This document shows, one piece after another, positions 11,890-30,966 of a stretch of DNA of 36,417 bases; position 1 is the stretch's first letter; the number at the start of each line of letters is the position of its first letter. Below the pieces are notes generated by a model. It saw only the letters and a list, made by a program, of their open reading frames with translations, did not search any database and had not been told where the DNA came from. The stretch comes from an uncultured Opitutaceae bacterium (lineage in GTDB: Bacteria > Verrucomicrobiota > Verrucomicrobiia > Opitutales > Opitutaceae): positions 1-36,417 of the forward strand of contig CALFNN010000073.1 in assembly GCA_937902925.1 (NCBI GenBank), read 5' to 3'. Position numbers and translations under genes: made by a program.

Positions 11890-11920
11890 CCCAGGTCAAC
11901 GCGTCCATCCGCCCGCCGCC

Positions 11921-13368: not shown

Positions 13369-14040
13369 TCACGCCAGCCGCGGCGTGCTCTCGATCACCC
13401 CGCGCGCGATCGCGTAGCGCGTGAGCCCGGCGACGTCGTGGATGTTGAGCTTGTTCATCACCTGCTGCCGGTGTTTTTCCACCGTCTTGATGCTGAGGCA
13501 CAGCGACGCGGCGATCTGCTTGTTGACATGCCCCTCCGCCACGAGCTGGAGCACCTCGAGCTCGCGCGAAGTCAGTTGCACGCCCTGCTTCTTCATCGGT
13601 TTCCCGTTGAGAAAGACCTCACGGTAGTAGTCGAGCAGGCGCTTCGAAATCGCCGGGCTGAAGAAGGCGTTGCCCTTGTAGGCCTCGCGGATCGCCTTGA
13701 TCAGGTCGTTGGCCGCCGTCTGCTTGATCAGGTAACCGGCGGCACCGGCCTCGGTCAGCTGGTGGACGTATTCGTCGTCGCTGTAGGACGAGAGGATCAG
13801 CACCTTCGTGGCAATCCGCTCGCTGATGATCTGCCGGGTCGCCTCGAGGCCGTTCAGTTCCGGCATCGCGATGTCCATGATGACGACGTCGGGGGTGAGT
13901 TGCATGGCCATCTGCACGGCCTGGCGGCCATTCTCGGCCTCGCCGACGACCTCGATATCCGGTTCCGCCAGCAGCAGGGAGCGCAGCCCCTGCCGGACGA
14001 CGGTGTGGTCGTCCGCCAATAGAACGGTGATTTTTTTCAT
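13369..14040 (-). CDS. NarL/FixJ-type response regulator, output of the stressosome-linked kinase
   Basis: This 223-residue protein has a receiver domain (about 4-120) with the acidic pair D10-D11, phosphoacceptor D56 (in VIMDIAMPELNG), switch residue S84 or S85, and K106. A LuxR-type helix-turn-helix lies at about 155-212 (LTSRELEVLQLVAEG, then NKQIAASLCLSIKTVEKHRQQV). It is the last gene of the operon. Its ATG overlaps the stop of the histidine kinase gene (ATGA), so translation is coupled and it is the obvious cognate partner. Phosphorylated NarL-type regulators bind DNA as dimers. The motif upstream of both RsbR-type genes is a candidate site, but that is an inference. All key residues are present, so I expect it to be functional. 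Confidence 0.95.
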   Translation of the reverse strand: MKKITVLLADDHTVVRQGLRSLLLAEPDIEVVGEAENGRQAVQMAMQLTPDVVIMDIAMPELNGLEATRQIISERIATKVLILSSYSDDEYVHQLTEAGAAGYLIKQTAANDLIKAIREAYKGNAFFSPAISKRLLDYYREVFLNGKPMKKQGVQLTSRELEVLQLVAEGHVNKQIAASLCLSIKTVEKHRQQVMNKLNIHDVAGLTRYAIARGVIESTPRLA

Positions 14041-16346: not shown

Positions 16347-16968
16347 CCGGTTTGCCAAGATATCGGATTGCCAGCACGAGTGCGTCGTCCGTGCCGCGAA
16401 AATGCCGGGTCATGATTTTTCCGACCAGCTGCGGCAGCGGGTCGCCCAGGTTGACCCCTTCGGTGAAGCCATCGCGCACGCCGTCGGTCGCGAAAATCAT
16501 CACGTCGCCCGGAAACACGGGCAGCACGCTCGCGTGCAGCGCCGGCAACTGGAAACCGACGAGGCCGCCGCGCAACAGGACGCTCTCCCGCGACGGATTT
16601 GCCGCCGGGTTCGCGCGCAGGAGCACGGTCTCGACGTTGCCGACGCCCAGCATCGCGACCGTGTGCTCGACCATGTTGAACGAAACCAGGGTCATGACCG
16701 CCCCGCGGGTGGTGCGCAGCGCGCCGTCGCAGCGCCGCATCAGGCCGATGACCGACTCGTCGACATGCTGCTCCAGCACCTCGATCGCCCGCTTCGCCGC
16801 CACGCTCGCCTCGTCGCCGTGGCCCAGCCCGTCCACCACGGCCGCAAGCATGCCGTCGCGGCGCGGCCGCACGAGCTGCAAATCGCCGGATTGTTTCTGC
16901 CCTGGCACCGCCCGCGACGCGACGTCCCATTCGAGGCCCTGGCTGCGCTGGAACGGGGTCGGACTCAT
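16339..16968 (-). CDS. rsbX: RsbX-like PP2C (SpoIIE-type) serine/threonine phosphatase
   Basis: This 209-residue protein is a single PP2C domain without a sensory domain, the usual size of RsbX. Metal-binding acidic residues are visible: D29 (SGDL), D46-G47 (VVDGLGHGDEA), D162-G163 (FATDGVRDGF) and D192-D193 (GTDDALVL). In Bacillus, RsbX removes phosphate from RsbS and RsbR and so resets the stressosome after RsbT has acted. The gene overlaps rsbT by 4 bases (ATGA) and the histidine kinase gene by 8, so the set is translationally coupled. RsbX-like proteins are close to other small SpoIIE phosphatases; the name rests on size, intact metal sites and gene order rather than on diagnostic residues. 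Confidence 0.88.
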   Translation of the reverse strand: MSPTPFQRSQGLEWDVASRAVPGQKQSGDLQLVRPRRDGMLAAVVDGLGHGDEASVAAKRAIEVLEQHVDESVIGLMRRCDGALRTTRGAVMTLVSFNMVEHTVAMLGVGNVETVLLRANPAANPSRESVLLRGGLVGFQLPALHASVLPVFPGDVMIFATDGVRDGFTEGVNLGDPLPQLVGKIMTRHFRGTDDALVLAIRYLGKPDG

Positions 16969-17393
16969 TTATAGGGCAGCCATTTTTTCATCGTCACCGT
17001 GGTTCCCCGTCCCAGCCGCGAGTCGATGTCAAACTCGTCCATCAGCCACTTCGCCCCCGGCAGCCCGACGCCCAGTCCCCGGCGGGTCGAGTAGCCGTAT
17101 TGCATCGCCTGGGCCACATCCGGAATGCCCGGCCCCTCGTCCCGCGCGATGATCTGGATCCCGCGCCGGCCGGACCCGCTGTTGCTCGTCGCACTGCTCA
17201 TGACGCTGCTCATGACGATCTCTCCCTTCTTGGCATGATCGACGATGTTGCGCGCCACCTCCGAGATTGCGGCGGCGATCAACGTCACCTCCGCGCCGTT
17301 GAAACCCAACTGGAGGGCGAGGGTCCGCCCTCGCTGGCGTGCGGTCACTATGTCGGCGGCGGAGTGGATCTCCGTTTGTGCCTCAGTTTCCAT
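16965..17393 (-). CDS. rsbT: RsbT-like serine/threonine kinase (switch kinase of the stressosome)
   Basis: This 142-residue protein is a GHKL-type ATPase/kinase of the RsbT/RsbW group. It shows the N box ISEVARNIVDHA (N49), DEGPGIPD (D85) and the glycine-rich GLGVGLPGAKWLMDEF (from G106). RsbT is held by RsbR/RsbS complexes; under stress it phosphorylates them, is released and activates a downstream protein. I chose the ATG at 17393, which gives an 11-base overlap with rsbS; a longer reading upstream encodes the shadow of rsbS. A short extra Ser-rich segment (about residues 61-76, containing MSSVMSS) sits between two core strands and is probably a surface loop. No RsbU phosphatase gene is seen nearby; the next-but-one product carries an RsbU-type N-domain instead. 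Confidence 0.93.
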   Translation of the reverse strand: METEAQTEIHSAADIVTARQRGRTLALQLGFNGAEVTLIAAAISEVARNIVDHAKKGEIVMSSVMSSATSNSGSGRRGIQIIARDEGPGIPDVAQAMQYGYSTRRGLGVGLPGAKWLMDEFDIDSRLGRGTTVTMKKWLPYK

Positions 17394-17757
17394 CGGCCGG
17401 GATTCGCTTGGTCTTCGTGTCGAGATAGGCGAGCCCCTCTTCCAGATCCAGGGCCGTGCCCACGCCCTCGAGGGTGAGGCCCAATTGCACCATGGCAAAA
17501 GCCACGTCGGGCTGGATGCCGACGATGACCGTCTCCGCGCCGCGGAGCTTGAGCATGTGGGCGATCGCCCGCAGCATCCGGGTCGCGAAGGAGTCGATGA
17601 CATCGAGCACGGTCACGTCGATGATCACGCCGCGGGAGCGAAACTCGCCCACGCGGTCGCCGAGGCTGTCGCGCAACTGCAGCAGGTCGGCGTCGGACAA
17701 CACCGATTGAATGCTGGCGATCAGGTAACCGCCTTGCTTCAGGATGGGAACCTGCAT
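17383..17757 (-). CDS. rsbS: RsbS stressosome scaffold, STAS domain
   Basis: This 124-residue single STAS domain is the usual size of RsbS. The phosphorylated serine is conserved: S56 in DVIDSFATR, matching S59 of Bacillus RsbS (VDSF-TR). With RsbR it forms the stressosome core that sequesters RsbT; phosphorylation of this serine by RsbT disrupts binding. Other family landmarks are ILKQGGYLIASIQ at the start and LRGAETVIVGIQPDVAFAMVQLG in the second half. The gene starts 3 bases after the rsbR stop and overlaps rsbT by 11 bases, so the three are clearly one translational unit. I see nothing missing. Confidence 0.96.
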   Translation of the reverse strand: MQVPILKQGGYLIASIQSVLSDADLLQLRDSLGDRVGEFRSRGVIIDVTVLDVIDSFATRMLRAIAHMLKLRGAETVIVGIQPDVAFAMVQLGLTLEGVGTALDLEEGLAYLDTKTKRIPADGN

Positions 17758-17760
17758 GGG

Positions 17761-18684
17761 CTAGAGCTTGGGCTCTTTCAGCGACAACGGTTCCTGGCTG
17801 ATGATGACCTTGTAGCCCAGCAGGCGTTCGGCCTCCTCGATGCCACCCTGGAGATCGCCGACCGCGTTCATCTTGCTGAGATCGACGCCGATGGTGACGA
17901 GGATCTGCGCGATTTCGGCGGACAGGCCGGTGATGATGACGCTCGCGCCCATGAGGCGCGAGGCTTCGACCGTCTTCACCAGGTGATTCGCGACAATCTG
18001 GTCGATCGTCGGGACGCCGGTGATGTCGACGACGACGACCTTCGCGCGGTTGCCGCGGATGCCGCGGAGCAATTGTTCGGTCAACTGCCGAGCCCGCTGC
18101 GCGTCGATCACGCCGATGATGGGCAGGATCAGCAGGCGCTCGCGCACCTGGAGCACCGGCGTGGACAGCTCGCGGATCGCCTCCTGCTGCTGGCGGATGA
18201 CGCGCTCGCGCTCCTGCACGAAGCTGACCGCCACCGTGTTCGCGATGCGGTTGGCCGCCGGCTCGTAGGCGTCGAGCACGCGGTTGAGCAGGTCGAAATC
18301 GGCCTGGTATTTCTTGAACAGCGAACGTGCGAGCACGTCGCGCAACAGCAGCACGATGCCGACGACCTCGTGCGTTTCGACGCCGCGGGGGATGATGCGC
18401 TCGGACAGGTTGCGCGCGTAGGCCTGCAGGGCCTCGACACTGCCGGTCTCGAGCACTTCCACGTAGTTGTCATACACCGAGGTCGCCTCGGAGAAGATTT
18501 CCTCCTTCGTCATCGCCGTCAGCAATTGTGCGTCCGTGATGCGGCGCGCCCATTCCTCGCGCAACTGCGTGCGGTTTTGGCGAAGGTGCGAGACTAGTTC
18601 CCGCAGCAATGGATCGCTGTAATCCGCGGTCGGTTTCGTGGGTTGCGTGATGTTCTGGATCTTGAATTCGGGCTTTTTTTTCAT
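17761..18684 (-). CDS. rsbR: RsbR-type stressosome sensor (RsbRD N-domain plus STAS)
   Basis: This 307-residue protein has an N-terminal helical, globin-like RsbRD domain (about 25-160: LREEWARRI, EEIFSEATSVYDNYV, VVGIVLLLRDVLARSLF), a helical linker and a C-terminal STAS domain (about 178-295). The linker threonine T175 (ELSTPVL) matches T171 of Bacillus RsbRA. The position of RsbRA T205, inside the STAS domain, appears as Gln (Q229 in PTIDQIVANHL), so only one of the two RsbT sites is kept, if my alignment is right. RsbR proteins form the turrets and core of the stressosome and sense stress through the N-domain; the signal here is unknown and no heme ligand can be assigned. I chose the ATG at 18684 because the region upstream is intergenic and holds the shared promoter-type motif. 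Confidence 0.95.
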   Translation of the reverse strand: MKKKPEFKIQNITQPTKPTADYSDPLLRELVSHLRQNRTQLREEWARRITDAQLLTAMTKEEIFSEATSVYDNYVEVLETGSVEALQAYARNLSERIIPRGVETHEVVGIVLLLRDVLARSLFKKYQADFDLLNRVLDAYEPAANRIANTVAVSFVQERERVIRQQQEAIRELSTPVLQVRERLLILPIIGVIDAQRARQLTEQLLRGIRGNRAKVVVVDITGVPTIDQIVANHLVKTVEASRLMGASVIITGLSAEIAQILVTIGVDLSKMNAVGDLQGGIEEAERLLGYKVIISQEPLSLKEPKL

Positions 18685-19490: not shown

Positions 19491-22121
19491 GTGAGACCCG
19501 ACGCCGAACTCCGTGGCCGCGCATCCGTCGTCGTCGCCACGATCGGCGCGATTCTTTCCCATTCGTTCCTTTTCGCCGCGCCTCCCGTCGCACCGCGCTT
19601 CCCTTCGCTGGCGCTGCCTGTGCCCGGCGCGACCAGTCTGGCCGTGCTCTCGCCCACCGTGCTCGAAATCACGACGATCACGGCGCCCCCCGCGCCCGCC
19701 AACGCAGGCGAAATTCAACCGCCGGGCGATCTGCCCTCGCTCGTCCCGTCTGACTACGCCGTCACCGTTGATACGCGGGCTGTCTCCGTGCGCGCGGTGG
19801 GTTTCAAGCGGAGGCCCGTCTATGCGCCGCTCAAGTCCCGTGACCTCCGCGTCGGTAACTGCATCTATCTCCAACTCGCCGCCTCGATTCCCGATGGCGC
19901 GCGCGTCGCCGTCGCCACCGCCACCACAAAACTTTTCCCGCCGGGCCTTCAGGTCACCGCAGTCGCCGATCCGCTGCGGTCCGGTCCGGCCCTGCATGTC
20001 GACCAGGTCGGCTACGCGACTCCCGATTCGAAAACAGCCTTCGTCGGTTTCTATCTCGGCTCGCTCGGTGAACTCGCGTTGCCCGCCGCGCAGGATTTCA
20101 CGTTGCTCGATGCCCGCTCCGGCCGGCCGGTGTTTCACGGCCGGTTGACGCCGCGCCCCGACCGCGGATTTCCGCAGCCGTGGTATCGGCAGGTGGCCGA
20201 GGCCGACTTCACCGCCTTCCGCACGCCGGGCGAATACCGGCTGGCCGTGCCCGGTCTCGGCGCCTCCGACCCGTTCTTCATCGCCGACGGCATCGCCGGC
20301 GCCTTCGCCCGCACCTTCGCCCTCGGCCTGTATCATCAGCGCTGTGGAACCGACAACGCCCTCCCCTTCACCCGGTTCGTCCACGACGCCTGCCACACCG
20401 CCCCCGCCGAGGTGCCGACCGCGGACTTCAAGCCGACGCAGCAATTCCTCGCCGCGGCGGCGGCCGAGAATCCCAACCCGCGCCAGACCGCCCCACCACT
20501 CACCAGCACCGACGCGAGCCTCTACCCGTTTGTCCGCCAGGGAAAAATCGACGTCTCCGGCGGCCACCACGACGCGGGCGACTACAGCAAATACACCATC
20601 AACAGCGCGGGGCTGATCCATCACCTGGTGTTCGCCGCCGATGTGTTTCCCGGCGCCGGCGATCTCGACAACCTGGGGCTGCCCGAAAGCGGCGACGGCC
20701 GCAGCGATCTCCTGCAGGAGGCGAAATGGGAGGCGGATTTCCTCGTGAAGATGCAGGACGACGACGGCGGTTTCTATTTTCTCGTCTACCCGCGCGACCG
20801 GAAATACGAGCACGACGTCCTGCCCGACCACGGCGACCCGCAGGTCGTCTGGCCGAAAAATACCGCGGCCACCGCCGCCGCGGTCGCCGCGCTCGCGCAG
20901 TGCGGATCGTCGCCGCGCTTCCGGCGCGAGTTTCCCGACGCCGCCGCCCGCTACCTCCAGGCCGCGCGCCGCGGCTGGGAATTCCTCCTCGCCGCGATCG
21001 CGCGCCACGATCGCGACGGCGCCTATCAAAAACTCACGCACTACGGGGACGAGTTCATGCACGACGACGAACTCGCCTGGGCCGCCTGCGAGCTTTTTGC
21101 CGCGACCGGCGACCCATCGTTTCACGACCGGATTCAGGCGTGGCTGCACCCCGCCGATCCGGCGACCCGCCGCTGGGGCTGGTGGCGGATGTGCGAGGGT
21201 TATGGCCGGGCCATCCGCTGCTACGCCTTCGCCGCGCGCTCCGGCCGGCTGGCCCGCGACCGGCTCGATCCGCTTCTGCTCACCCAGTGCGAGAACGAAA
21301 TCGCCGCCTGCGCCGACGACTGGCTCCATGCCGCGCAACAGAGCGCCTACGGCACCAGTTTCCCGGAGCAGACCAAGCGCACCCTCAGCGCCGGCTGGTA
21401 TTTTCCCACCGATCCGGCGTTCGACCTCGCGGTTGCCTGTCAGCTCGATTTTCCAAAATTCAACGACCCGCGCGCCGCTTATCGCGCGGCGATCTTCACG
21501 AACCTCAACTACGCCGCCGGCTGCAACCCGGTCAATGTATCCTACATCGCGGGCCTCGGCTGGCACCGGCCGCAGGAGATCGTGCATCAGTATGCGCAAA
21601 ACGACCGTCGCGCCCTCCCGCCCTCCGGCATTCCGATCGGCGCGTTGCAGGACGGCTTCGGCTGGATGGATCTCTACGGGCGCGAACTCGGCGCGGAGTG
21701 CTATCCGCTCGATGGCGCCAAGGAGAATCCCTACCCGATCTACGATCGCTGGGGCGACAGCTTCAACCTGAAGACGGAATTCGTCATCGTGAACCAGGCG
21801 CGCGCGCTCGCGACGGCCGCCTGGCTCATGGCGCAATCGCCATTGCGCGACCAGCCCTGGCGGCCGGTTCCCGCCAAGATCGCCGGCGTGCCGGCCACGT
21901 TGACCGTGAACCAAACCGTGACAGCCCGACTGCAGGTCGCCGGCCTCGACTTCGCGCAGGCGCGCATCGTGTGGGAGGCGCGCGGCCAGCCACCGGCGTT
22001 CGCCCGCGAATTCACGTTCGCTGCGCACGAGTCCGGACCGCAATGGATCGAGGCCGAGGCCCAATGGCCCGACGGTCGCCGGGAGTTCGGCGCAATGGAA
22101 TTCACCGCCGTCCCGCGGTAG
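19491..22121 (+). CDS. secreted GH9 family glycosidase (probable endo-beta-1,4-glucanase)
   Basis: This 876-residue protein has a signal-type N-terminus (hydrophobic stretch about 11-29), a CelD-type Ig-like domain (about 35-270), a GH9 catalytic (alpha/alpha)6 domain (about 275-790) and a C-terminal Ig-like domain (about 793-875). Catalytic residues are D361 and D364 in GGHHDAGDYSKY and likely proton donor E763 in NLKTEF. It closely matches residues about 1502-2356 of the giant GH9 protein, with long shared runs such as VGFKRR, LGLYHQRCGT and TRFVHDACHTAPAEVP, but it lacks every accessory module. The start is GTG at 19491; an ATG at 19482 meets a stop after three codons. The two genes are clear paralogues and may differ in location: this form soluble or periplasmic, the giant form surface- or polymer-bound. 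Substrate is not determined by sequence alone. Confidence 0.93.
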   Translation: MRPDAELRGRASVVVATIGAILSHSFLFAAPPVAPRFPSLALPVPGATSLAVLSPTVLEITTITAPPAPANAGEIQPPGDLPSLVPSDYAVTVDTRAVSVRAVGFKRRPVYAPLKSRDLRVGNCIYLQLAASIPDGARVAVATATTKLFPPGLQVTAVADPLRSGPALHVDQVGYATPDSKTAFVGFYLGSLGELALPAAQDFTLLDARSGRPVFHGRLTPRPDRGFPQPWYRQVAEADFTAFRTPGEYRLAVPGLGASDPFFIADGIAGAFARTFALGLYHQRCGTDNALPFTRFVHDACHTAPAEVPTADFKPTQQFLAAAAAENPNPRQTAPPLTSTDASLYPFVRQGKIDVSGGHHDAGDYSKYTINSAGLIHHLVFAADVFPGAGDLDNLGLPESGDGRSDLLQEAKWEADFLVKMQDDDGGFYFLVYPRDRKYEHDVLPDHGDPQVVWPKNTAATAAAVAALAQCGSSPRFRREFPDAAARYLQAARRGWEFLLAAIARHDRDGAYQKLTHYGDEFMHDDELAWAACELFAATGDPSFHDRIQAWLHPADPATRRWGWWRMCEGYGRAIRCYAFAARSGRLARDRLDPLLLTQCENEIAACADDWLHAAQQSAYGTSFPEQTKRTLSAGWYFPTDPAFDLAVACQLDFPKFNDPRAAYRAAIFTNLNYAAGCNPVNVSYIAGLGWHRPQEIVHQYAQNDRRALPPSGIPIGALQDGFGWMDLYGRELGAECYPLDGAKENPYPIYDRWGDSFNLKTEFVIVNQARALATAAWLMAQSPLRDQPWRPVPAKIAGVPATLTVNQTVTARLQVAGLDFAQARIVWEARGQPPAFAREFTFAAHESGPQWIEAEAQWPDGRREFGAMEFTAVPR

Positions 22122-22401: not shown

Positions 22402-23601
22402 ATGAGACTGCTTTTCGTCCACGAAAGATTTGGTGCTCTCGGGGGCGCCGAGGTGAATGTCCTGCTGACGGCCCGCGAACTTTCCGCCCGCGGCCACACG
22501 GTCGGCCTGCTGCACGGGCCGGCGACTGGCCGGGAGGAGGCGGCCTGGCGCGAGACCTTTCCCGCCCGATTTTCGCTCGCGGGTGCCTCCTCGGCCATCG
22601 ACGCGCTCGACGGGGCGTTGCAACAGTTTCAGCCGGACGTGGCCTTCGTCCACAAGCTGGCGGATCTCGACGTCGTGGCCGCGCTGGCCGCGCAACCCGT
22701 GCCGGTCGCCCGCATGGTGCACGATCACGACCTGTGCTGCCTGCGCCGCTACAAATATCACCCGCTCAGCCGGCGGATCTGCACGCGGGCGCTCTCGCCG
22801 TATTGCGTGTTTCCGTGCGGGGCGACGCTCGCGCGCGATCCGGAGCGGCGGCTGACTTTTCGCTGGATCAGCTACGGTGCGAAGCGGCGCGAACTCGCCC
22901 TCAACCGCCGGTTTCAACGCGTCATCGTCGCCACGGACTACATGAAACAAGAGTTGATGCGCAACGGCTTTGCCGGCGATGCCATCGAGACCCACGCGCC
23001 GGTGCCCCGGCCCGCCGCCACGGCCTTTCAGTCCACGTTCGGTCCGCGCAACCTCATCGTCTACGCGGGCCAGGTGATCCGCGGCAAGGGCGTCGATGTT
23101 CTCCTCGAGGCGCTGGCGCGCGTCCGCGAGCCGTTTGAATGCGTCGTGCTCGGGGACGGCAACCACCGCGCGCACTGCGAAGACCTGAGCCACCGCCTCG
23201 GCCTCGCCGGCCGCGTCCGGTTCGCCGGCTTCGTGCCGCCGGAGGAAATCCCCGGATTCTATCGCGAAGCCACGCTCGCCGTGATGAGCTCGGTGTGGCC
23301 CGAGCCGTTTGGCGCCGTCGGCCTCGAGGCGATGCGCTGCGGGCTGCCGGTGGTGGCGTTCGACGCCGGCGGCATCCGCGAATGGCTCGTCGACGGCTGG
23401 AACGGTTTCCTCGTCCCGTGGATGGATCGCGCCGGCTACGCGGACCGCGTGGAGCGCCTGCTGCGCGACAAACCCCTCGCCCGGCAGCTCGGCGAACACG
23501 GGCGCACCTGGGCCGGCGAGCGCTTCGGCTTCGCGAACTACGTCACCGGCCTCGAGAATCTTTTCCGCCGCCTCGCGGGGCGCGGACCCACCATCCCATG
23601 A
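22402..23601 (+). CDS. GT4-type glycosyltransferase, first gene of the exopolysaccharide operon
   Basis: This 399-residue protein has the two-domain GT-B fold. The N-terminal donor-independent half starts MRLLFVHERFGALGGAEVNV; the C-terminal half has VYAGQVIRGKGVDVLLEAL, FAGFVPPEEIPGFY and the EX7E motif (E301 to E309 in EPFGAVGLE), which binds the nucleotide sugar in a retaining reaction. It probably adds a hexose to a lipid-linked intermediate on the cytoplasmic face. A cysteine-rich stretch (about residues 112-140, HDHDLCCLRRYK and RICTRALSPYCVFPCG) suggests a small metal-binding insertion found in some GT4 enzymes. The ATG follows a gap of 280 bases and opens the operon; the stop overlaps the next ATG (ATGA). 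The sugar cannot be named. Confidence 0.92.
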   Translation: MRLLFVHERFGALGGAEVNVLLTARELSARGHTVGLLHGPATGREEAAWRETFPARFSLAGASSAIDALDGALQQFQPDVAFVHKLADLDVVAALAAQPVPVARMVHDHDLCCLRRYKYHPLSRRICTRALSPYCVFPCGATLARDPERRLTFRWISYGAKRRELALNRRFQRVIVATDYMKQELMRNGFAGDAIETHAPVPRPAATAFQSTFGPRNLIVYAGQVIRGKGVDVLLEALARVREPFECVVLGDGNHRAHCEDLSHRLGLAGRVRFAGFVPPEEIPGFYREATLAVMSSVWPEPFGAVGLEAMRCGLPVVAFDAGGIREWLVDGWNGFLVPWMDRAGYADRVERLLRDKPLARQLGEHGRTWAGERFGFANYVTGLENLFRRLAGRGPTIP

Positions 23602-24302
23602 GGAAGCCCGGCGCCTATCAACTCGTCGCCGTCGTCGGCGGCAGCGGGGCCGGCAAAAGCTGGCTCGTCGGCCAGCTCCGCCGCCTGCTCGGCGAGAAGG
23701 CCGGGCATCTCGCGCTCGACGATTTCTACACCGACCTTTCGCATCTCGCCCCGAGCCGGCGCGAAGAGGTCAACCTCGACACTCCCGAGGCCATCGATTG
23801 GGAATGCCTCGGCCAGGTGCTGGCGGATCTCCGCGCCGGCACGCCCACCCTCGTCCCGCGTTTCGATCTCCTGACCCGGTGCCGGCTCGCCGAGCGCCTG
23901 CCGTGGTCGCCGCGCCCGCTCGTGCTGGTCGAAGGCCTCTGGCTGCTGCGCAGCCCCGCGCTGCGGCGGCTGTTCGACCTCAAGATCTTTCTCGACTCCC
24001 CCGCGCCGCTGCGCCTCCGCCGGCGCCTGCTGCGCGACGTCTCCGAGCGCGGGCGCACCGCCGCCGAGGTCAAGCACGCCTTCAAGTTCACCATCTCCCG
24101 GATGCACCGGCGCCACGTGGAGCCGCAACGGAAATGGGCCGATCTCGTGCTGACCCAGCCGCTGGTCGAGATCGAGGTGCGGGCGCTCGCCGACCGCTTC
24201 TGGGTTCTCCTGGAGACCGGCTCGCTGCTGCCGGCGTGGATGCGCGAAACCTTCCGCGCCGAATTGCTCGCCCTGCTTACCCAAGATGCCGCCCGCAACT
24301 GA
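23598..24302 (+). CDS. uridine kinase/phosphoribulokinase-family P-loop kinase
   Basis: This 234-residue protein has a Walker A motif GGSGAGKSW (about residues 14-22), ALDDFYTD (about 39-46), NLDTPEAIDWE in the place of the NFDHP segment of uridine kinases, PRFDLLTRCR, LVLVEGLWLL and the lid region RRRLLRDVSERGR. Family members phosphorylate uridine or related small molecules. It overlaps the upstream glycosyltransferase by 4 bases and the downstream transferase by 17, so it is firmly in the exopolysaccharide operon. A uridine kinase could feed UDP-sugar synthesis, but it could equally phosphorylate a sugar or another small molecule. The C-terminal third is less typical. Substrate is uncertain; kinase activity is likely. 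Confidence 0.82.
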   Translation: MRKPGAYQLVAVVGGSGAGKSWLVGQLRRLLGEKAGHLALDDFYTDLSHLAPSRREEVNLDTPEAIDWECLGQVLADLRAGTPTLVPRFDLLTRCRLAERLPWSPRPLVLVEGLWLLRSPALRRLFDLKIFLDSPAPLRLRRRLLRDVSERGRTAAEVKHAFKFTISRMHRRHVEPQRKWADLVLTQPLVEIEVRALADRFWVLLETGSLLPAWMRETFRAELLALLTQDAARN

Positions 24303-25023
24303 CCACGCCTGTCCGCCGCGCCTGCTCGCGCACTTCGATACCTTCGCCTCCCCCTGGGGCCGGCGCCGGCGGCAACTCTACCTCGGGTGGAAACGGCTGA
24401 GCTGGCGCTGGCTCGTGGGCGGCGCCCATCTGACGAAACGCGCGCTCGACCTCGCCGCCAGCTTCGCCGCCCTCGTGCTGCTCAGCCCCCTCTTCCTGCT
24501 CATTGCCTGCCTGATCAAGCTCGAGGATCGCGGCCCCGTGATTTTCCCGCAGATTCGCGTCGGCCGCTTCGGGCGCGAATTCCGGATGTTCAAGTTTCGC
24601 TCGATGCGGCCCGACGCCGAGCAACGGCTCCAGGAACTGCTCGCGAGGAACCGCCACCTCCACGGCGTCACGTTCAAGCTCAAGGACGACCCGCGGATCA
24701 CGCGCGTCGGCCACTGGCTGCGGAAATACTCCTTCGACGAGCTGCCCCAGTTCTACAACGTGCTCGTCGGCGACATGTCGCTCGTCGGGCCGCGCCCGCC
24801 CGTGCCGCGCGAGGTCGCGCTCTACTCGCTCGCCGACCGCCGGCGCCTCGCGATCAAGCCCGGCATCACGTGCATCTGGCAGATCAGCGGTCGCGCCGAG
24901 ATCGATTTTCCCGGGCAGGTGCAGCTCGACGTCCGCTACATCGAGAGCCGCAGCCTCTGGCAGGACCTCAAGATCCTCGGCCGGACGATTCCCGCGGTGC
25001 TCGCGGGCACGGGAGCCTATTGA
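24286..25023 (+). CDS. undecaprenyl-phosphate sugar-1-phosphate transferase (polyisoprenyl-phosphate hexose-1-phosphate transferase family)
   Basis: This 245-residue protein has the bacterial sugar transferase domain with one hydrophobic, probably re-entrant membrane segment (about 56-78) and no extra N-terminal membrane domain. Family landmarks are KFRSMRPDAE, KDDPRITRVGHWLRKYSFDELPQF with the catalytic Asp-Glu pair D151-E152, VGDMSLVGPRP and the closing KPGITCIWQISGRAEIDF. It would transfer a sugar phosphate from a nucleotide sugar to undecaprenyl phosphate, the first committed step of exopolysaccharide repeat-unit assembly, at the inner membrane. It overlaps the kinase gene by 17 bases and the next gene by one base (TGATG). 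Which sugar is used cannot be read from the sequence. All key residues are present. Confidence 0.94.
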   Translation: MPPATDHACPPRLLAHFDTFASPWGRRRRQLYLGWKRLSWRWLVGGAHLTKRALDLAASFAALVLLSPLFLLIACLIKLEDRGPVIFPQIRVGRFGREFRMFKFRSMRPDAEQRLQELLARNRHLHGVTFKLKDDPRITRVGHWLRKYSFDELPQFYNVLVGDMSLVGPRPPVPREVALYSLADRRRLAIKPGITCIWQISGRAEIDFPGQVQLDVRYIESRSLWQDLKILGRTIPAVLAGTGAY

Positions 25024-26354
25024 TGAAAACGCTGCTGATCTGTCCCGCCCGCCGCGCGGCCGTCGCCGCCCTCGCCGACTCCTCCCCGCTGGCGCTCGTC
25101 CCGGTGTTCGGCCGCTGCCTCCTCGAATACTGGATCGCCGAGCGGGTCGCGCGCGGCGCCCGGCACGTGCTCGTCCTCGCCTCGGACCGGCCCGACCAAG
25201 TGCGTGCGAAACTGGACGACGGCACGCGCTGGGGTGTGCGCATCGAGGTCCTGCCCGAGATTCGCGAACTGACCGCCGCCGAGGCCCGCGCCAAGTATCG
25301 CGCCTCGCCCGCCGCGGGCTGGCTGCCGGCACCGGCGGATGCGCTCCTCGTCGACCGCCTGCCGGGCCTCCCGGATCATCCGCTGTTAGAGGGCTACGCC
25401 GCCTGGTTCGCGGCGCTCCAGGCCTGGCAGCCGCACCCGTTCACGCCCGACCGGATCGGCCAGCGCGAAGTGCGCCCCGGCGTCTGGGTCGGCCTGCACT
25501 CCCGCATCGACCCCACCGCGCAGATCGAGGCGCCCTGCTGGATCGGGGAGAACGTCACCATCGGGCCGGACGCGGTGATCGGCCCCGAATCCATTCTCGA
25601 CGACGGCGTGTTGGTCGACACTGGCGCCCGCGTCGCACGCAGCGTCGTCGGCCCGCAGACCTACGTCGGCGAATGGACGTCCGTCGAAAACTCCTTCGCG
25701 CACGGCGACGCCCTCACCAACTGGCGGACCGGGTCCGCGTTGCGGGTTCCCGACGCCTTTCTCCTGAGCTCGCTCGCACCGCGACCCCGCGGCACCGAGT
25801 CGGCCGGCTGGTCCGGCCGGACGCTGGCCCTGCTGGCGCTGGTGGTCACCGCCCCCGCGGCGGCGCTGGCCATCCTTGTCGCGGCGTGTCGCGAAAATCC
25901 GGTTCTGCCGGCGCGACTCGCCATCCGACCCGGCACCCCTTCGCCCGCCGCCGCGGTCGCCACATTCACCTTCCGGGAAATCGCCGGAGTCGCCGGCTGG
26001 CTCCGCCGCTGGCCGCAGCTCTGGAGCATCGTGCGCGGCGACCTCGCGTGGTTCGGCAACCGTCCGCTGTCCCCCGCCGCCGCCGCCGCGCTCGCCAACG
26101 ACTTCGAGCGCCTCTGGCTCGCCGCCCCGGCCGGCTTTTTCTCCCTGGCCGACGCGCACGGCTGTGCCGAAAGCCCGTCGGAGGAGACGCACGCGCACGC
26201 CAGCTATTATGCGGTCCACGCGTGCCCCCGCCTGAATTGGTTCATCCTCACCCGCGCGCTGTTCCGCTCCGGGCCGATCCACCCGGGCCGGCCCCGGCGC
26301 TCCCTGCTCCGCCCCGCCGCCCTCTCCCATCTCGTGCAAAAACAACAAAGCTGA
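25023..26354 (+). CDS. degenerate nucleotidyltransferase/hexapeptide protein fused to a degenerate sugar-transferase-like domain
   Basis: This 443-residue protein starts like a sugar-nucleotide pyrophosphorylase (1-100: SPLALVPVFGRCLLEYWI), but the GxGTR nucleotide-binding loop is absent. Residues about 148-235 form hexapeptide repeats (left-handed beta helix: IGENVTIGPDAVIGPESILDDG). A membrane segment (about 266-288) and RLAIRPG, WPQLWSIVRGDLAWFGNRPL and LWLAAPAGFFSLADAHG follow the layout of a bacterial sugar transferase, but the catalytic Asp-Glu pair appears as R328-R329. Both enzyme ends therefore look inactive, while the reading frame is intact. It may act as a membrane scaffold or regulator for the real transferase encoded just upstream (one-base overlap). 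This is an inference; the fold assignment of the C-terminal part is by eye. Confidence 0.8.
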   Translation: MKTLLICPARRAAVAALADSSPLALVPVFGRCLLEYWIAERVARGARHVLVLASDRPDQVRAKLDDGTRWGVRIEVLPEIRELTAAEARAKYRASPAAGWLPAPADALLVDRLPGLPDHPLLEGYAAWFAALQAWQPHPFTPDRIGQREVRPGVWVGLHSRIDPTAQIEAPCWIGENVTIGPDAVIGPESILDDGVLVDTGARVARSVVGPQTYVGEWTSVENSFAHGDALTNWRTGSALRVPDAFLLSSLAPRPRGTESAGWSGRTLALLALVVTAPAAALAILVAACRENPVLPARLAIRPGTPSPAAAVATFTFREIAGVAGWLRRWPQLWSIVRGDLAWFGNRPLSPAAAAALANDFERLWLAAPAGFFSLADAHGCAESPSEETHAHASYYAVHACPRLNWFILTRALFRSGPIHPGRPRRSLLRPAALSHLVQKQQS

Positions 26355-26371
26355 GCGAAAGCCGACGACCC

Positions 26372-26680
26372 ATGAAAATCGAGCATGACGGAAACAATCT
26401 CCGCGTCAGTGACATCGCGGAACTGAATGCGCTGAACGCGACGACGTTTCGCGACGAAGTGCGGGCCGCGCTGCCGCTCGAGCCGGGCACGATCGAGATC
26501 GACCTCTCGCAAACCCAGTTCGTCGACAGCTCCGGCCTCGGCGCGCTGTTCTCGCTCTACCGGGCCGCCCATGGCGGCCACAACGGCGTCACGATGCGGC
26601 TCCTCAATCCGAAGCCGCCGATCCAGCAATTGTTCGAGCTGACCCAACTGCATCAGCTCTTCGAAATCTGCTGCCGCTGA
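26372..26680 (+). CDS. STAS-domain anti-sigma-factor antagonist, SypA/SpoIIAA-like
   Basis: This 102-residue single STAS domain has the phospho-site segment FVDSSGLGALFSLY; S53 or S54 aligns with S58 of SpoIIAA. The protein would be switched by phosphorylation and dephosphorylation. The gene lies 17 bases after the fusion gene and 3 bases before a gene encoding both a kinase and a phosphatase domain, which is very likely its partner. Its site in an exopolysaccharide operon resembles SypA of Vibrio fischeri, a STAS protein needed for syp polysaccharide biofilms and inhibited by phosphorylation. The alternative is control of a sigma factor; no sigma factor gene is in this window. Confidence 0.92.
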   Translation: MKIEHDGNNLRVSDIAELNALNATTFRDEVRAALPLEPGTIEIDLSQTQFVDSSGLGALFSLYRAAHGGHNGVTMRLLNPKPPIQQLFELTQLHQLFEICCR

Positions 26681-26683
26681 ACC

Positions 26684-28588
26684 ATGGCCGGCCCCCCTTC
26701 CACTCCGGAACACGGCCTGACCAGCCGCATCACGTTTCGCTGCGACCTGGGTGAGGCGCGCGCCGCCGCGCGCGCCCTGCGCGACTTTCTCGTCACCCTC
26801 GGCCTGGACGAAACCGAGTTGTTCAACTGCGAGCTCTGCCTCACCGAGGCCTGCAACAACGCCGTCCAGCACGCCAGCCCCACGGGGGTCCACGCACCGG
26901 TCGTCGCCGCGGTGTCCGCGCACGGTGCGGAAATCGAACTCACCGTGACCGACCACACGCCGGGCTTCGCCCTCGCCACCCGCGCCGGCCCGCTGTCGCC
27001 CGATCACGACCACGGCCGCGGTCTGTTCATCATCCAGTCGCTCATGGACGAGGTCAGCTATTTCCGTGGCTCCCGCGAAAACACCCTGGTCATGCGGCTG
27101 GCCCGGCGCGCGCACCCGCTCCCGCCACCGCTCCCGGCATCCGCCGCTTCCGACGCCACCGGGCGCCAGCTGGCCGAATGCCGGCAGACCATCGGCGCCA
27201 TGGCGCGCGAGCTTTGCTTCCGGTCGGAAAGTCTCGCGGCGATTTTCCGCTGCTGCTCCGAACTCGGCCGCACCACCGACCTCGCGGGCTTCAGCCAGCG
27301 CCTGCTGGGCGATCTGCTGCATCTCGCCGCGGCCGACTGGTTCGTTCTCCGCTTGAACTCGGCGGATGGCTCCCGGCTGGCGGTCTTCGCCACGTCGACG
27401 GCCAAGCTGGGCGGCGCGCCGCTGCCCCTCGCTCCGCGGGATGCGTCGCCCGGGTCCGCCGAGCTCGCCGCCGCCCAATCCGGTCGCGAGCTCGAGTTTG
27501 CCACCCGCCTGGCGTCGCCCGCGGTCGAGCCGCTGTGCGCCGCCGGCCCCGAGGCCACCGGCCGCGTCCATCCGCTGCTGTTTGACGAGATGCTCGTCGG
27601 CACGCTGGCCGTCGGCCACAGCACCGCCGGGTCGCCGTTCTCGGCGCTGCAGGTCGAGATGATCCGCACGATCGCCGAGTTTCTGGCGATCCATGTCGTG
27701 AGCGCCCGCCATCAGGACGAGCAGCTTCGTGCACAGCTCGTCGCGCACGAACTCGAGATCGCCCGCCGGATCCAACGGGCCCTGCTGCCGCGCGCGTTGC
27801 CGCAGCCGCCTCCCTTCAGCCTCGCCGCGAGCTGGGAGAGCGCGCGGCAGGTCGGGGGCGATTTCTACGATGCCCTTCCGCTCGGCGAACAGTCGCTGCT
27901 GCTGGTGGTGGCGGACGTCATGGGCAACGGCGTGCCGGCCGCGATGTTCGCCACGATCACGCGCAGCCTCCTTCGGGCGCTGGCCGGGCGCGGCCACGGC
28001 CCGGCGAATCTCCTGCGCCAGCTTAACGAACTGCTCTACGAGGAGCTCTCCGCCGTCGGGATGTTTGTCACCGTCCAGCTCGTGTTGGTTGACTTGGTCC
28101 GCCGGCAACTCGTCGCGGCCAGCGCCGGCCACTGTCCCATTCTCGTCGCCGGCGGCGCCGCCGCGGGCGTGCAGACGCTTTGCCCGACGGGCCTGCCCCT
28201 CGGCATCATGCCGGACAGCACCTATTGCCAGCAAACGCTCGCCCTCGCCGACCCGGGCACCCTGCTGCTCTACACCGACGGCCTCACCGAGGCGCAGAAT
28301 CCCGCGGGCGAAATGTTCGGCCAGGAACGACTGGCCGAGTGGCTGCGCGACAATTTCCCCCTGCCCGGCGCCGACCAGCTGCGCGACCGGCTCTCGGCGG
28401 AGATCGGCCGGTTTCGCGACGGCGCCGCGCTGCACGACGACCAGGCTTTCCTCATCCTCGCCGGCGGGAGTGTTGCGTCCGCCGCACCCGCGCCGATTCC
28501 CGGCTCCCCGGATGCGGCCCCAATTCCTTCCGACGCCCACGCCACCGCCCTCCACGCCGGTTCCCCGGCTCTTGCGGCCACCGACTGA
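26684..28588 (+). CDS. partner-switching protein: RsbW-type kinase, GAF and PP2C phosphatase domains
   Basis: This 634-residue protein has an N-terminal HATPase of the RsbW type (about 15-140; N box LTEACNNAVQHA, glycine loop DHDHGRGLFIIQSLMDEV), a helical link, a GAF sensor domain (about 180-350), a coiled coil and a C-terminal SpoIIE-type PP2C domain (about 365-600). PP2C metal residues are D393 and D396 (GGDFYD), D411 (ADVMGNG), D532 (YTDGLTEAQN) and D585-D586. It could both phosphorylate and dephosphorylate the STAS protein encoded 3 bases upstream, with the GAF domain choosing between the two. SypE of Vibrio fischeri has the same kinase and phosphatase ends around a receiver domain. In the kinase the usual DxGxG segment is altered (TDHTPGFAL), so its activity needs testing. 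A Pro/Ala-rich tail follows about residue 595. Confidence 0.92.
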   Translation: MAGPPSTPEHGLTSRITFRCDLGEARAAARALRDFLVTLGLDETELFNCELCLTEACNNAVQHASPTGVHAPVVAAVSAHGAEIELTVTDHTPGFALATRAGPLSPDHDHGRGLFIIQSLMDEVSYFRGSRENTLVMRLARRAHPLPPPLPASAASDATGRQLAECRQTIGAMARELCFRSESLAAIFRCCSELGRTTDLAGFSQRLLGDLLHLAAADWFVLRLNSADGSRLAVFATSTAKLGGAPLPLAPRDASPGSAELAAAQSGRELEFATRLASPAVEPLCAAGPEATGRVHPLLFDEMLVGTLAVGHSTAGSPFSALQVEMIRTIAEFLAIHVVSARHQDEQLRAQLVAHELEIARRIQRALLPRALPQPPPFSLAASWESARQVGGDFYDALPLGEQSLLLVVADVMGNGVPAAMFATITRSLLRALAGRGHGPANLLRQLNELLYEELSAVGMFVTVQLVLVDLVRRQLVAASAGHCPILVAGGAAAGVQTLCPTGLPLGIMPDSTYCQQTLALADPGTLLLYTDGLTEAQNPAGEMFGQERLAEWLRDNFPLPGADQLRDRLSAEIGRFRDGAALHDDQAFLILAGGSVASAAPAPIPGSPDAAPIPSDAHATALHAGSPALAATD

Positions 28589-28591
28589 TCC

Positions 28592-29788
28592 ATGAAACCG
28601 ATCCTCCCCCTGTTTGTATTCATCGACGCGTGCGGCTGGGAAATCATCCGCGACGAACCGTTCGCGCGCGCCGTCGCCCCGCACCGCCGGCGCCTGCGCT
28701 CCGTCTTCGGCTACAGCTCGGCCTGCATTCCCTCGATCCTCTCCGGCCGCTGGCCGGTGGAGCATCGCAACTGGTGCTACTTCGTCTACGACCCGCCGCG
28801 CTCCCCGTTCCGCGCCCTGCGTTCGCTGCGCTGGCTGCCATCCGCGCTCACGAGCCGGCGCCGCTTCCGGCGCTGGCTCTCCAAGTCGCTCAAGACGCAC
28901 CTGAAATTCCGCGGCTACTTCGACCTCTACAACATCCCGTTCCGCCATATCTCGCTGTTCGATTTCACCGAAAAGAAAAATCCACTGCAGCCCGGCGGCC
29001 TCAATCGCGGCCCGAACATTTTCGATTACCTGCAGGACCGTGGCATCGCCTACCACGTCAGCGATCCCGTCCGCACCGAGTCGGCCAACCTCGACGCGCT
29101 CGTGCGGGACATCGCCGCGGAGCAAATCGACTTCGCGTTTCTCTACTGGCCCGAACTCGACGGCTTGATGCACCGGGTCGGCAACACCGCGCCGGACATC
29201 GGGCCCCAGCTCCGCCGCTATGAGCAGGGGCTCGACCGCCTCCTCGCCGCGGCGCACGCCCACTATGACGACGTGCATCTCTACGTGTTCAGCGACCACG
29301 GCATGGCCAATTGCGACCGGTTGCTCGACCTGCGCGCCACGATCGACGCGCTGGGCTGGCAGATGGGCGGGGATTATGCGGTCGTCTACGATTCCACCAT
29401 GGCCCGCTTCTGGTTTTTCCAGGAGGAGGCCCGGCGCGAGATCACGGAGTGTCTCGAACGCGTGCCGCAAGGCCACGTGCTCACGGATACCGAACTCGCC
29501 GATCTCGGCGCGCTGTTTCCCGACCGCTACTTCGGCGAACTCATTTTCCTCGTGGAGGAAGGCACGCTGATCGTCCCCAGCCACATGGGCGAGCGGCCGA
29601 TTCGCGCGATGCACGGCTATCACCCCGACGCCCCGCACAGCTACGCGTCGTTGCTGACGAACCAGCCGGACACGCCCTCCGACATCACCGCGATTCCCCA
29701 CGTCTTCAAGCTCATGGTCCGCGAGGCCAACCTCGCGCATGCCCGCAATCACCCGGTAAACCCAGCCCCGGTCCTGGCCGCTTCATGA
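28592..29788 (+). CDS. alkaline phosphatase superfamily enzyme (phosphodiesterase/nucleotide pyrophosphatase-like)
   Basis: This 398-residue protein has no signal peptide or membrane segment. Metal-site landmarks of the superfamily are D12 (FVFIDACGW), ELDGLMHRVG, VFSDHGM and MHGYHPDAPHS. In the nucleophile region it reads SSACIPSILSGRWPVEH; C45 in CIPS sits where sulfatases have Cys in CxPxR, but the Arg is replaced by Ile, so conversion to formylglycine is doubtful, and S42 or S43 may be the nucleophile. A basic stretch (about 80-105) may form a cap or a membrane-facing surface. In this operon it could act on phosphate-bearing glycan, lipid or nucleotide-sugar intermediates, but the substrate is unknown. 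It starts 3 bases after the switch protein gene and overlaps the acyltransferase gene by 4 bases (ATGA). Confidence 0.85.
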   Translation: MKPILPLFVFIDACGWEIIRDEPFARAVAPHRRRLRSVFGYSSACIPSILSGRWPVEHRNWCYFVYDPPRSPFRALRSLRWLPSALTSRRRFRRWLSKSLKTHLKFRGYFDLYNIPFRHISLFDFTEKKNPLQPGGLNRGPNIFDYLQDRGIAYHVSDPVRTESANLDALVRDIAAEQIDFAFLYWPELDGLMHRVGNTAPDIGPQLRRYEQGLDRLLAAAHAHYDDVHLYVFSDHGMANCDRLLDLRATIDALGWQMGGDYAVVYDSTMARFWFFQEEARREITECLERVPQGHVLTDTELADLGALFPDRYFGELIFLVEEGTLIVPSHMGERPIRAMHGYHPDAPHSYASLLTNQPDTPSDITAIPHVFKLMVREANLAHARNHPVNPAPVLAAS

Positions 29789-30966
29789 AGGTTCCCGCGA
29801 CGGGTTCCGACGCCGGTGAGGCCTTCCAGCGCACGTCCTACTTCACGGCGCTCGACTGCCTCCGCGCCGTCTCGATTCTCCTGGTGCTGCTGCATCACGT
29901 GCCGCCGCTGCCCGCCGGCAGCCTCTGGCGCACGCTGCAGGAAAACGGCCGCTATGGCGTCGCGTTCTTCTTCGCGATCAGCGGATTTCTCATCTGCACG
30001 CTGTTCCTGCGCGAGGAGCGGCGGACCGGCCGGGTTCAGCTCGCGAAATTTTACGGCCGCCGGGCGGTGCGGCTGCTGCCGCTCTACTACGTCGTGCTGG
30101 CGCTGCAGGCCGCGCTGGTTTTCGGCGCGCATCAATATACTCCGGAAAACCAGGAACTTTTCCGCGCGAAGCTTCCCGCCTATCTCGCCTACTACGCCAA
30201 CTGGCTGCCCACGGCGACGGCGGGCCCTTTCTTTTGCGCGTGGTCGCTCGCCGCCGAGGAGCAATTCTACCTCGTGTTCGGCCTGCTGTTCGTCCTCGTC
30301 CGCCGCCGCGCGCTCGTCGGCGTGGCGGCCGGCGCCCTCCTGCTGAAGGCCGCCGTCTACGCCGCGTTCGGCAACGTCGACACCCTCTCGCCCTGGTGGC
30401 GGGTGATCTTCAGTTATCAGGAGGCGATCCTCTGGGGCGTCCTGCTCGCGTTCGCGCTCGACGACTGCGCCGGTCGCCGCTCGCTCACCCGCTGGCTGGG
30501 CTCCCGCTGGTTGCTCGCGGGTGCGAGCCTGGCCGCCGCCGTCTGGCTCGTGATCCATCCGATGTCGGGCCAGAGTTCGTGGGACGCCCAACTGCTCTTC
30601 GTCCTCATGACCGCCGTCATCGCGGGCCTTGTGCTGCGCCCGGCGCCGCCGGGATTTGGCGGCGGGCTCCTCGTCCACGTCGGCCGCATCAGCTACGGCA
30701 TCTATCTGCTCCACATGTTCGTCATCAGCGCGGTGAAGAAACTTCCCTCCGGCACGTCCCCGGTCGTCTGTCTCGCGGTCAGCACCGTCGTCGTCGTCCT
30801 GCTGGCCTCCGTCGTGCACCGGTGGTTCGAGCGCCCGATCATCGAGCGGTGCAAACAAAGGCTTTCGCCCGCCCTCAGTTCGCCGCCGCGACCGGCTCCG
30901 CCGGAGGCGTCGTCCGGATTTCCCCTGCCGGCAGTCGCACTCCCGCCAGGACATCGAACGAAATGA
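29785..30966 (+). CDS. membrane O-acyltransferase, acyltransferase-3 family
   Basis: This 393-residue integral membrane protein has about ten hydrophobic segments. Near the start, FTALDCLRAVSILLVLLHH holds the family's R-x10-H pair (R27, H38), followed by GVAFFFAISGFLICTLFL and KFYGRRAVRLLPLYY, both typical. The last segment ends in HRWFERPII. Such enzymes move acyl groups, often acetyl, onto sugars at the inner membrane, so it probably decorates the exopolysaccharide. It is the last plus-strand gene of the operon. Its C-terminal about 30 residues are Pro-rich and lie over the 3' end of the convergent deacetylase-like gene (92-base overlap), so this tail may be a recent extension. Start ATG at 29785 overlaps the previous stop. 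Confidence 0.93.
   Translation: MKVPATGSDAGEAFQRTSYFTALDCLRAVSILLVLLHHVPPLPAGSLWRTLQENGRYGVAFFFAISGFLICTLFLREERRTGRVQLAKFYGRRAVRLLPLYYVVLALQAALVFGAHQYTPENQELFRAKLPAYLAYYANWLPTATAGPFFCAWSLAAEEQFYLVFGLLFVLVRRRALVGVAAGALLLKAAVYAAFGNVDTLSPWWRVIFSYQEAILWGVLLAFALDDCAGRRSLTRWLGSRWLLAGASLAAAVWLVIHPMSGQSSWDAQLLFVLMTAVIAGLVLRPAPPGFGGGLLVHVGRISYGIYLLHMFVISAVKKLPSGTSPVVCLAVSTVVVVLLASVVHRWFERPIIERCKQRLSPALSSPPRPAPPEASSGFPLPAVALPPGHRTK

Follow-up and report, generated by a model that had tools for sequence, protein, structure and literature searches.

A STAS protein and a kinase-GAF-phosphatase protein in an exopolysaccharide operon of an Opitutaceae bacterium: a probable SypA/SypE-like partner-switching module

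What does a partner-switching pair do inside an operon for polysaccharide synthesis? The question is raised by the window analyzed here, a whole stretch of 36,417 nucleotides (contig CALFNN010000073.1, assembly GCA_937902925.1) from an uncultured Opitutaceae bacterium (Verrucomicrobiota). Within an exopolysaccharide (EPS) operon of this window, a gene for a single STAS protein is followed 3 nt later by a gene for a protein with kinase, GAF and phosphatase domains, named here the switch. This arrangement had been read from the letters alone in an original prediction, and it was borne out by Pfam searches, the predicted fold and the coordinates. Judged by its anatomy, the pair is a real, recurring EPS-linked partner-switch module, and we consider it probable that it acts as a SypA/SypE-like module and regulates how active the EPS machinery of its own operon is. 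Phosphorylation of the STAS protein on S53 would fall to the kinase domain, and removal of the phosphate to the PP2C domain of the same polypeptide. The state of the GAF domain, together with a separate receiver encoded downstream in many relatives, would decide between the two activities. Without its phosphate, the STAS protein would be free to bind a target and so allow EPS output.

Anatomy of the STAS protein and the switch

The two genes at the center of the analysis are as follows.

26372 to 26680, + strand: single-domain STAS protein, 102 aa (Pfam STAS, E 5.7e-14), with the phospho-acceptor predicted at S53 (VDSSGLG)
26684 to 28588, + strand: bifunctional switch, 634 aa, with an RsbW/SpoIIAB-type kinase domain (residues ~12-142), a GAF domain (~173-348) and a SpoIIE-type PP2C domain (~349-594), from Pfam, predicted fold and catalytic residues

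In the Pfam search of the switch, HATPase_c_2 was matched by residues 21-138 (8.3e-25) and SpoIIE by residues 402-592 (2.4e-46); the GAF match at residues 202-337 (1.6e-4) was barely above its cut-off (22.7 bits versus 22.4). No NCBIfam model scored above its cut-off for either protein. The structure of the switch was predicted from a 33-sequence alignment, with a mean predicted local distance difference test score (pLDDT) of 86 and a predicted template modeling score (pTM) of 0.56, a low value, so that the relative arrangement of the domains is not given by the model. The weak Pfam GAF match is backed by the model because its central part aligns to solved GAF domains, those of PtsP: residues 173-348 matched 3ci6_B with a Z score of 18.3 over 162 residues and a root-mean-square deviation (rmsd) of 2.7, and 3trc was matched with Z 17.3. 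The kinase part resembled SpoIIAB (1th8_A, residues 10-142, Z 17.6) and RsbW (6m37_C, residues 12-142, Z 17.3, rmsd 1.8). For the phosphatase part (residues 346-595), the best fold match was the PP2C domain of SiaA (6k4e_B, Z 29.0), whereas by sequence Rv1364c ranked first. No Response_reg match was found inside the switch at E values up to 1, and the original statement that a GAF domain stands in place of the internal receiver of SypE agrees with the GAF matches by Pfam and fold. For the central part, the fold search gave no receiver-domain entry either, but PP2C entries filled its list, and this negative is given no weight. The protein is called a variant of the SypE-type switch because the internal receiver that belongs to the definition of SypE is absent.

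The active sites are conserved. Motif and active-site counts were made on sets of 53-56 sequences, 33 sequences made up the alignment for the model, 64 the tree and 65 loci the recount; L062 and L063 in these sets are near-identical. E55 and N59 were kept in 53/53 sequences covering the N-box, and D90 and G111-R112-G113 (GRG) were invariant among the 33 aligned sequences; in the larger set, position 90 was D in 50/53 and E in 3/53. In the phosphatase, Asp393 and Asp411 were found in 56/56 sequences, and Asp532, Asp585 and Asp586 in all 55 with a residue there; we take these five to be the metal ligands. N59 is taken, independently of any alignment to SypE, as the counterpart of the conserved N52 that SypE kinase activity requires (PMC3610818).

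The kinase stretch TDHTPGFAL, which contains D90, had been quoted correctly in the original prediction and regarded as an oddity. The stretch stands and the oddity does not: at this G1-motif site, DH was read in 25 of the 53 sequences (20 DHT, 2 DHS, 2 DHG, 1 DHN), DPG in 17 and other residues in 11, with E55/N59 and GRG intact. The window's version reads D-H-T-x-G-F, and the DHG variant fits the motif D-x-G-x-G. TDHTPGFAL is therefore best read from the alignment as a clade variant, not a defect. The idea that the motif marks a dead or odd kinase was rejected, with DH in 25/53 beside a kept N-box.

Among the HATPase_c_2 matches in the window's genome, the switch was far ahead (1.9e-25), followed by the C105 frame of 1170 aa (7.6e-10) and RsbT (1.3e-9); the C105 match and 20 weaker ones are taken, as a class, to be histidine kinases. 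In three loci, a second, stand-alone RsbW-like kinase gene lies beside the kinase-GAF-phosphatase gene (L168, 7762-8139; L169, 4829-5209; L170, 8056-8436).

By sequence search, TM1442 and RsbV are the solved structures nearest the STAS protein. The original prediction had named S53/S54 as phospho-acceptor; alignment with RsbV (MDSTGLG) favors S53, the first Ser of DSSG, over S54. All 70 aligned STAS entries that are not part of a WecG fusion have the D-S pair; 59 distinct ones come from switch loci, and the entries were gathered by similarity to switch-locus STAS proteins. The corresponding Ser is reportedly phosphorylated in RsbV and SpoIIAA. In SypA it is S56 that is phosphorylated (PMC4517449). 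The likeness to SypA/SypE proposed for the pair thus gains support from domain anatomy and conserved residues, and by analogy the module should work like SypA/SypE. As a separate observation, six subdivision 3-type loci (L051, L054, L055, L057, L058, L068) carry a tandem second STAS gene before the switch, in whose product the residue behind DS is E, D, N or H.

The exopolysaccharide operon and its recurrence

The STAS and switch genes are the fifth and sixth of an eight-gene operon on the + strand (22402-30966). The genes start at 22402, 23598, 24286, 25023, 26372, 26684, 28592 and 29785, the intergenic gaps are, in order, -4, -17, -1, 17, 3, 3 and -4 nt, and the genes would be co-transcribed. 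The other members and the genes beyond them are listed below.

22402 to 23601, + strand: GT4 glycosyltransferase, first gene of the operon (Glycos_transf_1, 3.3e-37), syntenic in relatives
23598 to 24302, + strand: uridine kinase/phosphoribulokinase-like protein (NCBIfam uridine kinase, 2.3e-43, under cut-off), overlapping the GT4 gene by 4 nt
24286 to 25023, + strand: initiating sugar transferase (Pfam Bac_transf, 1.1e-66; TIGR03025 EPS sugar transferase, 2.6e-84, slightly under cut-off)
25023 to 26354, + strand: sugar nucleotidyltransferase-like protein that carries hexapeptide repeats of the beta-helix kind (Hexapep, 1.2e-8) and resembles Bac_transf in a C-terminal stretch (6.2e-6, narrowly missing the cut-off), with GlmU/RmlA-like NCBIfam matches far under cut-off
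28592 to 29788, + strand: type I phosphodiesterase family protein, 3 nt past the switch (Phosphodiest, 2.8e-16), following the switch in relatives too
29785 to 30966, + strand: acyltransferase 3 family protein (Acyl_transf_3, 1.7e-30)
between 30875 and 35786, - strand: DUF2334 protein, GT4, Wzy-type and GT2 proteins, from profile matches

The operon and the flanking - strand genes are read as an EPS locus, so that the switch, like SypE, is encoded in a polysaccharide locus together with its STAS partner. Near the EPS locus, two CelD_N-containing proteins of glycoside hydrolase family 9 are encoded (913-8481 and 19491-22121, + strand), one of them between the operon and a stressosome module described below.

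Full-length relatives of the switch turned up both in part of the genomes related to the window's, where most matches covered the phosphatase only, and in named Verrucomicrobiota contigs. In the latter search, the best 80 of at least 472 relatives were kept, the lower part of the 80 being largely cyanobacterial and matching in the phosphatase part only. No relative of the switch was found in viral contigs. Two gene orders recurred. The first, recovered both by mapping of the window's genes and by a separate clustering of open reading frames, runs GT4, kinase, sugar transferase, nucleotidyltransferase, STAS, switch, (receiver), phosphodiesterase, GT4, and was found in contigs labeled Opitutaceae, Pedosphaera, subdivision 3 and others. 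In the second, exemplified by Pelagicoccus L073 and L079, the switch comes after the sugar transferase and nucleotidyltransferase genes, with a divergent STAS gene. STAS orientation changed once on a quick tree of 64 switches.

The recount covered 65 distinct loci (66 rows; L126 is the window again and belongs neither to the 47 loci considered next nor to the 61 scored for receivers). In 47 well-flanked loci (at least 4.5 kb of 5' and 2.5 kb of 3' flank), neighbors within 9 kb were scored with custom profiles. STAS was found in 40/47, the sugar transferase and/or the nucleotidyltransferase in 30/47, both EPS genes in 29/47 and the phosphodiesterase in 17/47.

An earlier control of 35 PP2C loci without a fused kinase, mostly from cyanobacteria, had contained the sugar transferase in one locus, which must be L070; three members of that control (L067, L070, L088) are truncated or broken switches. 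In L070, the switch gene is in two pieces (3346-4188 and 5067-5990 within 3346-5990, + strand) and thus broken or interrupted. Because loci from another phylum are a weak control, 20 verrucomicrobial SpoIIE loci, hand-picked from phosphatase-only matches, were added for comparison. Two of these turned out to have a fused kinase, and both showed the EPS order with both EPS genes and a divergent STAS gene. Among the remaining 18 without a fused kinase (17 with no kinase match; L186 with the kinase on a separate gene), neither the sugar transferase nor the nucleotidyltransferase was found in any. The EPS context of the original prediction is thereby supported and recurs in Verrucomicrobiota (30/47 well-flanked loci versus 0/18).

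Several results weigh against the partner-switch reading or narrow it. A STAS neighbor was also found in 9 of the 18 comparison loci (8 of the 9 low-scoring, 23-28 bits), and our confidence was lowered very slightly because half of these loci share that neighbor. Since EPS genes were present in none of the 18 and STAS in nine, it is the EPS link, not the STAS link, that distinguishes the fused switch. Because similarity to the switch was the basis for gathering the loci, the counts do not describe a random sample. Of the 47 well-flanked loci, 17 have neither EPS gene at a distance of up to 9 kb, and the EPS association changed at least 11 times on the tree; the module can therefore operate elsewhere. 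No STAS gene was found within 9 kb in 7/47. Among 240 genomes sampled from the phylum, only 15 showed the kinase-GAF part (matches reaching model position 297 or beyond, one in two pieces). This is a minimum, since mostly 8 candidates were scored in each genome, and the system is thus widely spread, not common. Finally, the mechanism of SypA is described as not established even in Vibrio (PMC4517449), so the analogy supplies no target.

Three further observations concern individual loci. In L149, a receiver-PP2C-kinase protein occupies the place of the switch in a similar EPS operon; at 6654-12289 (- strand), genes for receiver-PP2C-kinase, sugar transferase, STAS, nucleotidyltransferase and WecG-STAS-STAS proteins are consecutive. 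In L186 (7479-9458, - strand), a receiver-PP2C protein, a separate kinase gene and STAS lie side by side without EPS genes, as another split form of the switch. L059 and L061 are different EPS loci with switches in one metagenome-assembled genome (Opitutaceae E14_metabat.bin.223), which would reflect either a genuine second copy or mixing within the bin.

Input to the switch

With a GAF domain at the center of the switch, the original prediction had proposed that the system would be ligand-sensing rather than phosphorelay-controlled. Of the 61 loci whose 3' sequence was long enough, 37 have a gene for a stand-alone receiver immediately behind the switch, in the same orientation; a receiver was accepted between -30 and +150 nt, counted from where the phosphatase domain ends (L076, with a receiver overlap of 40, is scored without a receiver in this count and with one on the tree). 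Because a separate receiver gene adjoins the switch in so many loci, the claim is not supported as a property of the system, and phosphorelay control looks typical of the switch family. Among the 32 receiver proteins clustered, D10 was present in 32/32, D53 in 31/32 (one gap) and K105 in 31/32. SypE carries its receiver internally (PMC3610818), and in the relatives with a receiver gene, SypE-type control looks as if it had been split over two proteins.

The window belongs to the other group. All members of its seven-row switch clade, with a Shimodaira-Hasegawa-like approximate likelihood ratio (SH-aLRT) support of 100, are without an adjacent receiver gene, whereas their sister L046 has one; among the other 20 members of the enclosing 27-row clade, the receiver is present in 18, absent in 1 and cut off in 1. 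The simplest reading of the tree is that the receiver gene was lost in the window's clade. It was also gained or lost elsewhere, since the whole tree needs 5 parsimony changes, and a Pelagicoccus-type clade is without it too.

Could a ligand alone then have replaced phosphorelay control in this clade, with the GAF domain binding a small molecule? The predicted GAF fold with its good structural matches and the absence, throughout the well-supported clade, of the receiver that L046 has would fit this. The same GAF domain is, however, found in the receiver-bearing relatives and is thus not a replacement for the receiver. A simple pattern search found no NKFDE-type motif, the cyclic-nucleotide GAF motif, in the switch, and a receiver encoded elsewhere could act, two-component genes facing the operon in the window. 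We therefore regard a ligand input on its own as possible but doubtful; the input in the window's clade may come from a ligand of the GAF domain, from a receiver encoded at a distance or from the two together.

The genes that face the operon are the following.

16339 to 18684, - strand: RsbR-RsbS-RsbT-RsbX stressosome module, divergent from the EPS operon (RsbRD_N, just under cut-off, with STAS; STAS; HATPase_c_2; SpoIIE)
14037 to 16358, - strand: histidine kinase with RsbU_N (9e-9), PAS domains and HisKA_3, from Pfam
13369 to 14040, - strand: NarL/LuxR-type response regulator (Response_reg, 6.8e-29; GerE, 8.4e-18)

RsbR-S-T-X and at least part of the kinase also face the operon in L034, L043 and L059, with the regulator too in L034; L044 has RsbR alone, at the contig end, and L045 has the kinase and regulator without Rsb genes. 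RsbRSTX blocks followed by signaling proteins, some with RsbU_N, have already been described (PMC9237108). Transcription of the syp locus is governed by RscS-SypF-SypG (PMC4517449), and by analogy we infer that the stressosome and two-component genes form a transcriptional layer of EPS control.

Candidate targets of the module

Under the SypA/SypE-like reading, the free STAS protein would act on some component of EPS production. STAS matches in the window's genome comprised three SulP-like transporters, RsbR, RsbS, the operon STAS protein, a STAS protein with a GAF-PP2C neighbor, a receiver-receiver-STAS protein and a WecG protein with two STAS domains; several of these labels come from reading the sequences. 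The last is encoded on contig C48 (L135, 9346-11205, - strand) as a WecG/TagA/CpsF glycosyltransferase with a C-terminal pair of STAS domains, each reading IDSTG, near GT4-like and nonribosomal peptide synthetase-like genes, both labels likewise read from sequence.

If the switch phosphorylated STAS domains fused to such a glycosyltransferase, phospho-state would be coupled to sugar transfer. In 8 of the 65 distinct loci, a WecG-STAS fusion lies no more than 9 kb from the switch (seven checked with Pfam, L141 with custom profiles). In four of these eight, only a receiver gene was found between, with 0.5-0.75 kb from the phosphatase domain to the WecG domain, and in L141 the fusion, a divergent STAS gene, the switch and a receiver all lie within 4.3 kb. 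Confirmed fusions were present in 6 of the 15 switch genomes, five of the six on the contig of the switch, 0.8-33 kb away. In three genomes (G093, G102, G215; loci L171, L172, L174), no STAS was found near the switch, and the distance between the fusion and a stand-alone STAS gene is 2.4 kb. Among two-STAS fusions, the first STAS domain has D-S in 7/8 with a switch versus 1/10 without one, relatedness not being allowed for, and the C48 fusion has D-S in both domains.

Against this target, 15 confirmed fusions occur among the other 225 genomes, which have no such switch, and the second STAS domain keeps D-S in 10/10 two-STAS fusions from switch-less genomes. Five of 14 switch-less fusion genomes had no HATPase_c_2 match at E 1e-11, a cut-off that missed the kinase of L149 in G264 and could miss others, and none of the 12 matches listed for such genomes lay on the fusion's contig. 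Fusion and switch are on different contigs in the window's genome, and the fusion of L076 lacks D-S. In this survey, 26 WecG matches reached model position 369 or beyond, and all but the one in G086 were checked for STAS, which was confirmed in 21, the window's own among them, and was not found in G058, G235, G132 and G175. The idea that an RsbW-like kinase lies near every WecG-STAS fusion was rejected, the kinases listed in switch-less genomes being on other contigs. We consider phosphorylation of the fused domains unlikely, and the fusion is a lead, not a result. The fuller version, in which the switch, instructed by a receiver or a stressosome-linked pathway, phosphorylates both the free and the WecG-fused STAS domains, and sugar transfer is gated by the phospho-state with neither a sigma factor nor a second messenger involved, is a shade less likely still. 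If true, it would give the polysaccharide partner-switch class a target, which for SypA is not known. In the literature searched for glycosyltransferase-STAS or WecG partner switching, only papers titled on STAS proteins generally and on SypA were found.

The kinase fold also evokes a canonical anti-sigma switch, in which the kinase domain would act as an anti-sigma factor that the STAS protein antagonizes, on the pattern of RsbW/RsbV. The kinase model resembles SpoIIAB, including the sigma-F-bound structure (1l0o_A, Z 17.4), the STAS protein resembles RsbV, and any of 58 sigma70_r2 matches in the window's genome could be a distant partner. None of the 58, however, lies on the window's contig, so that no sigma factor is encoded with the switch there as in an RsbV-RsbW-sigma system; a sigma70 region-2 profile built from the genome's own matches hit only 3 of the 65 distinct loci, in each case with ~3-4 kb between hit and switch, and the fusion to a phosphatase differs from the RsbW arrangement. 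An anti-sigma role is accordingly improbable, slightly more so than either version of the WecG proposal.

The least probable route, and a very improbable one, runs through cyclic di-GMP (c-di-GMP), with the free STAS protein activating a diguanylate cyclase as in SiaC-SiaD and thereby raising EPS; HsbA-HsbD is said to be a parallel case. The SiaA PP2C domain is the best fold match of the phosphatase (Rv1364c coming first by sequence), and SiaABC governs aggregation through a partner switch (PMC7647112). Set against this, the window's genome, ~95% complete, has a single GGDEF match, on another contig. The SypA/SypE-like reading is retained with its target left general, and the recurring locus offers natural variants that separate input (receiver versus GAF) from output (EPS enzymes, STAS-bearing glycosyltransferases).

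No verrucomicrobial EPS partner switch was found in the literature searched, which left out most subscription papers. Among known systems, SypA/SypE of Vibrio fischeri shares with the window a switch encoded in the polysaccharide locus; a separate two-component cascade controls transcription of the syp locus (PMC4517449, PMC3610818) and may do so in the window. SypE has a central receiver where the window's switch has a GAF domain, and the relatives that have a receiver encode it as a separate protein. The two are likened by domain anatomy. HsbR/HsbA of Pseudomonas aeruginosa, like the window, pairs one bifunctional kinase-phosphatase with a STAS protein; the domain order and the central domain differ, and the receiver-PP2C-kinase order occurs within an EPS operon in L149. 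SiaABC(D) of the same species has the PP2C domain closest in fold (Z 29.0) and a partner switch acting on aggregation and biofilm (PMC7647112), but its kinase and phosphatase are separate proteins, SiaC is phosphorylated on Thr68, and its action is proposed to pass through a diguanylate cyclase. HmpU/V/W of Nostoc punctiforme, from another phylum, is a partner switch that includes a STAS protein, and its locus takes its name from motility and polysaccharide; here too kinase (HmpW) and phosphatase (HmpU) are separate (PMC8256260). RSTX stressosome modules share the rsbRSTX block and downstream signaling proteins, some with RsbU_N (PMC9237108), and the window's own module is divergent from the EPS operon. 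Beside these Vibrio, Pseudomonas and Nostoc cases of the literature searched, the module would extend partner switching on polysaccharide to Verrucomicrobiota, and its recurrence across many members suggests that polysaccharide output is controlled in this way in a poorly studied phylum.

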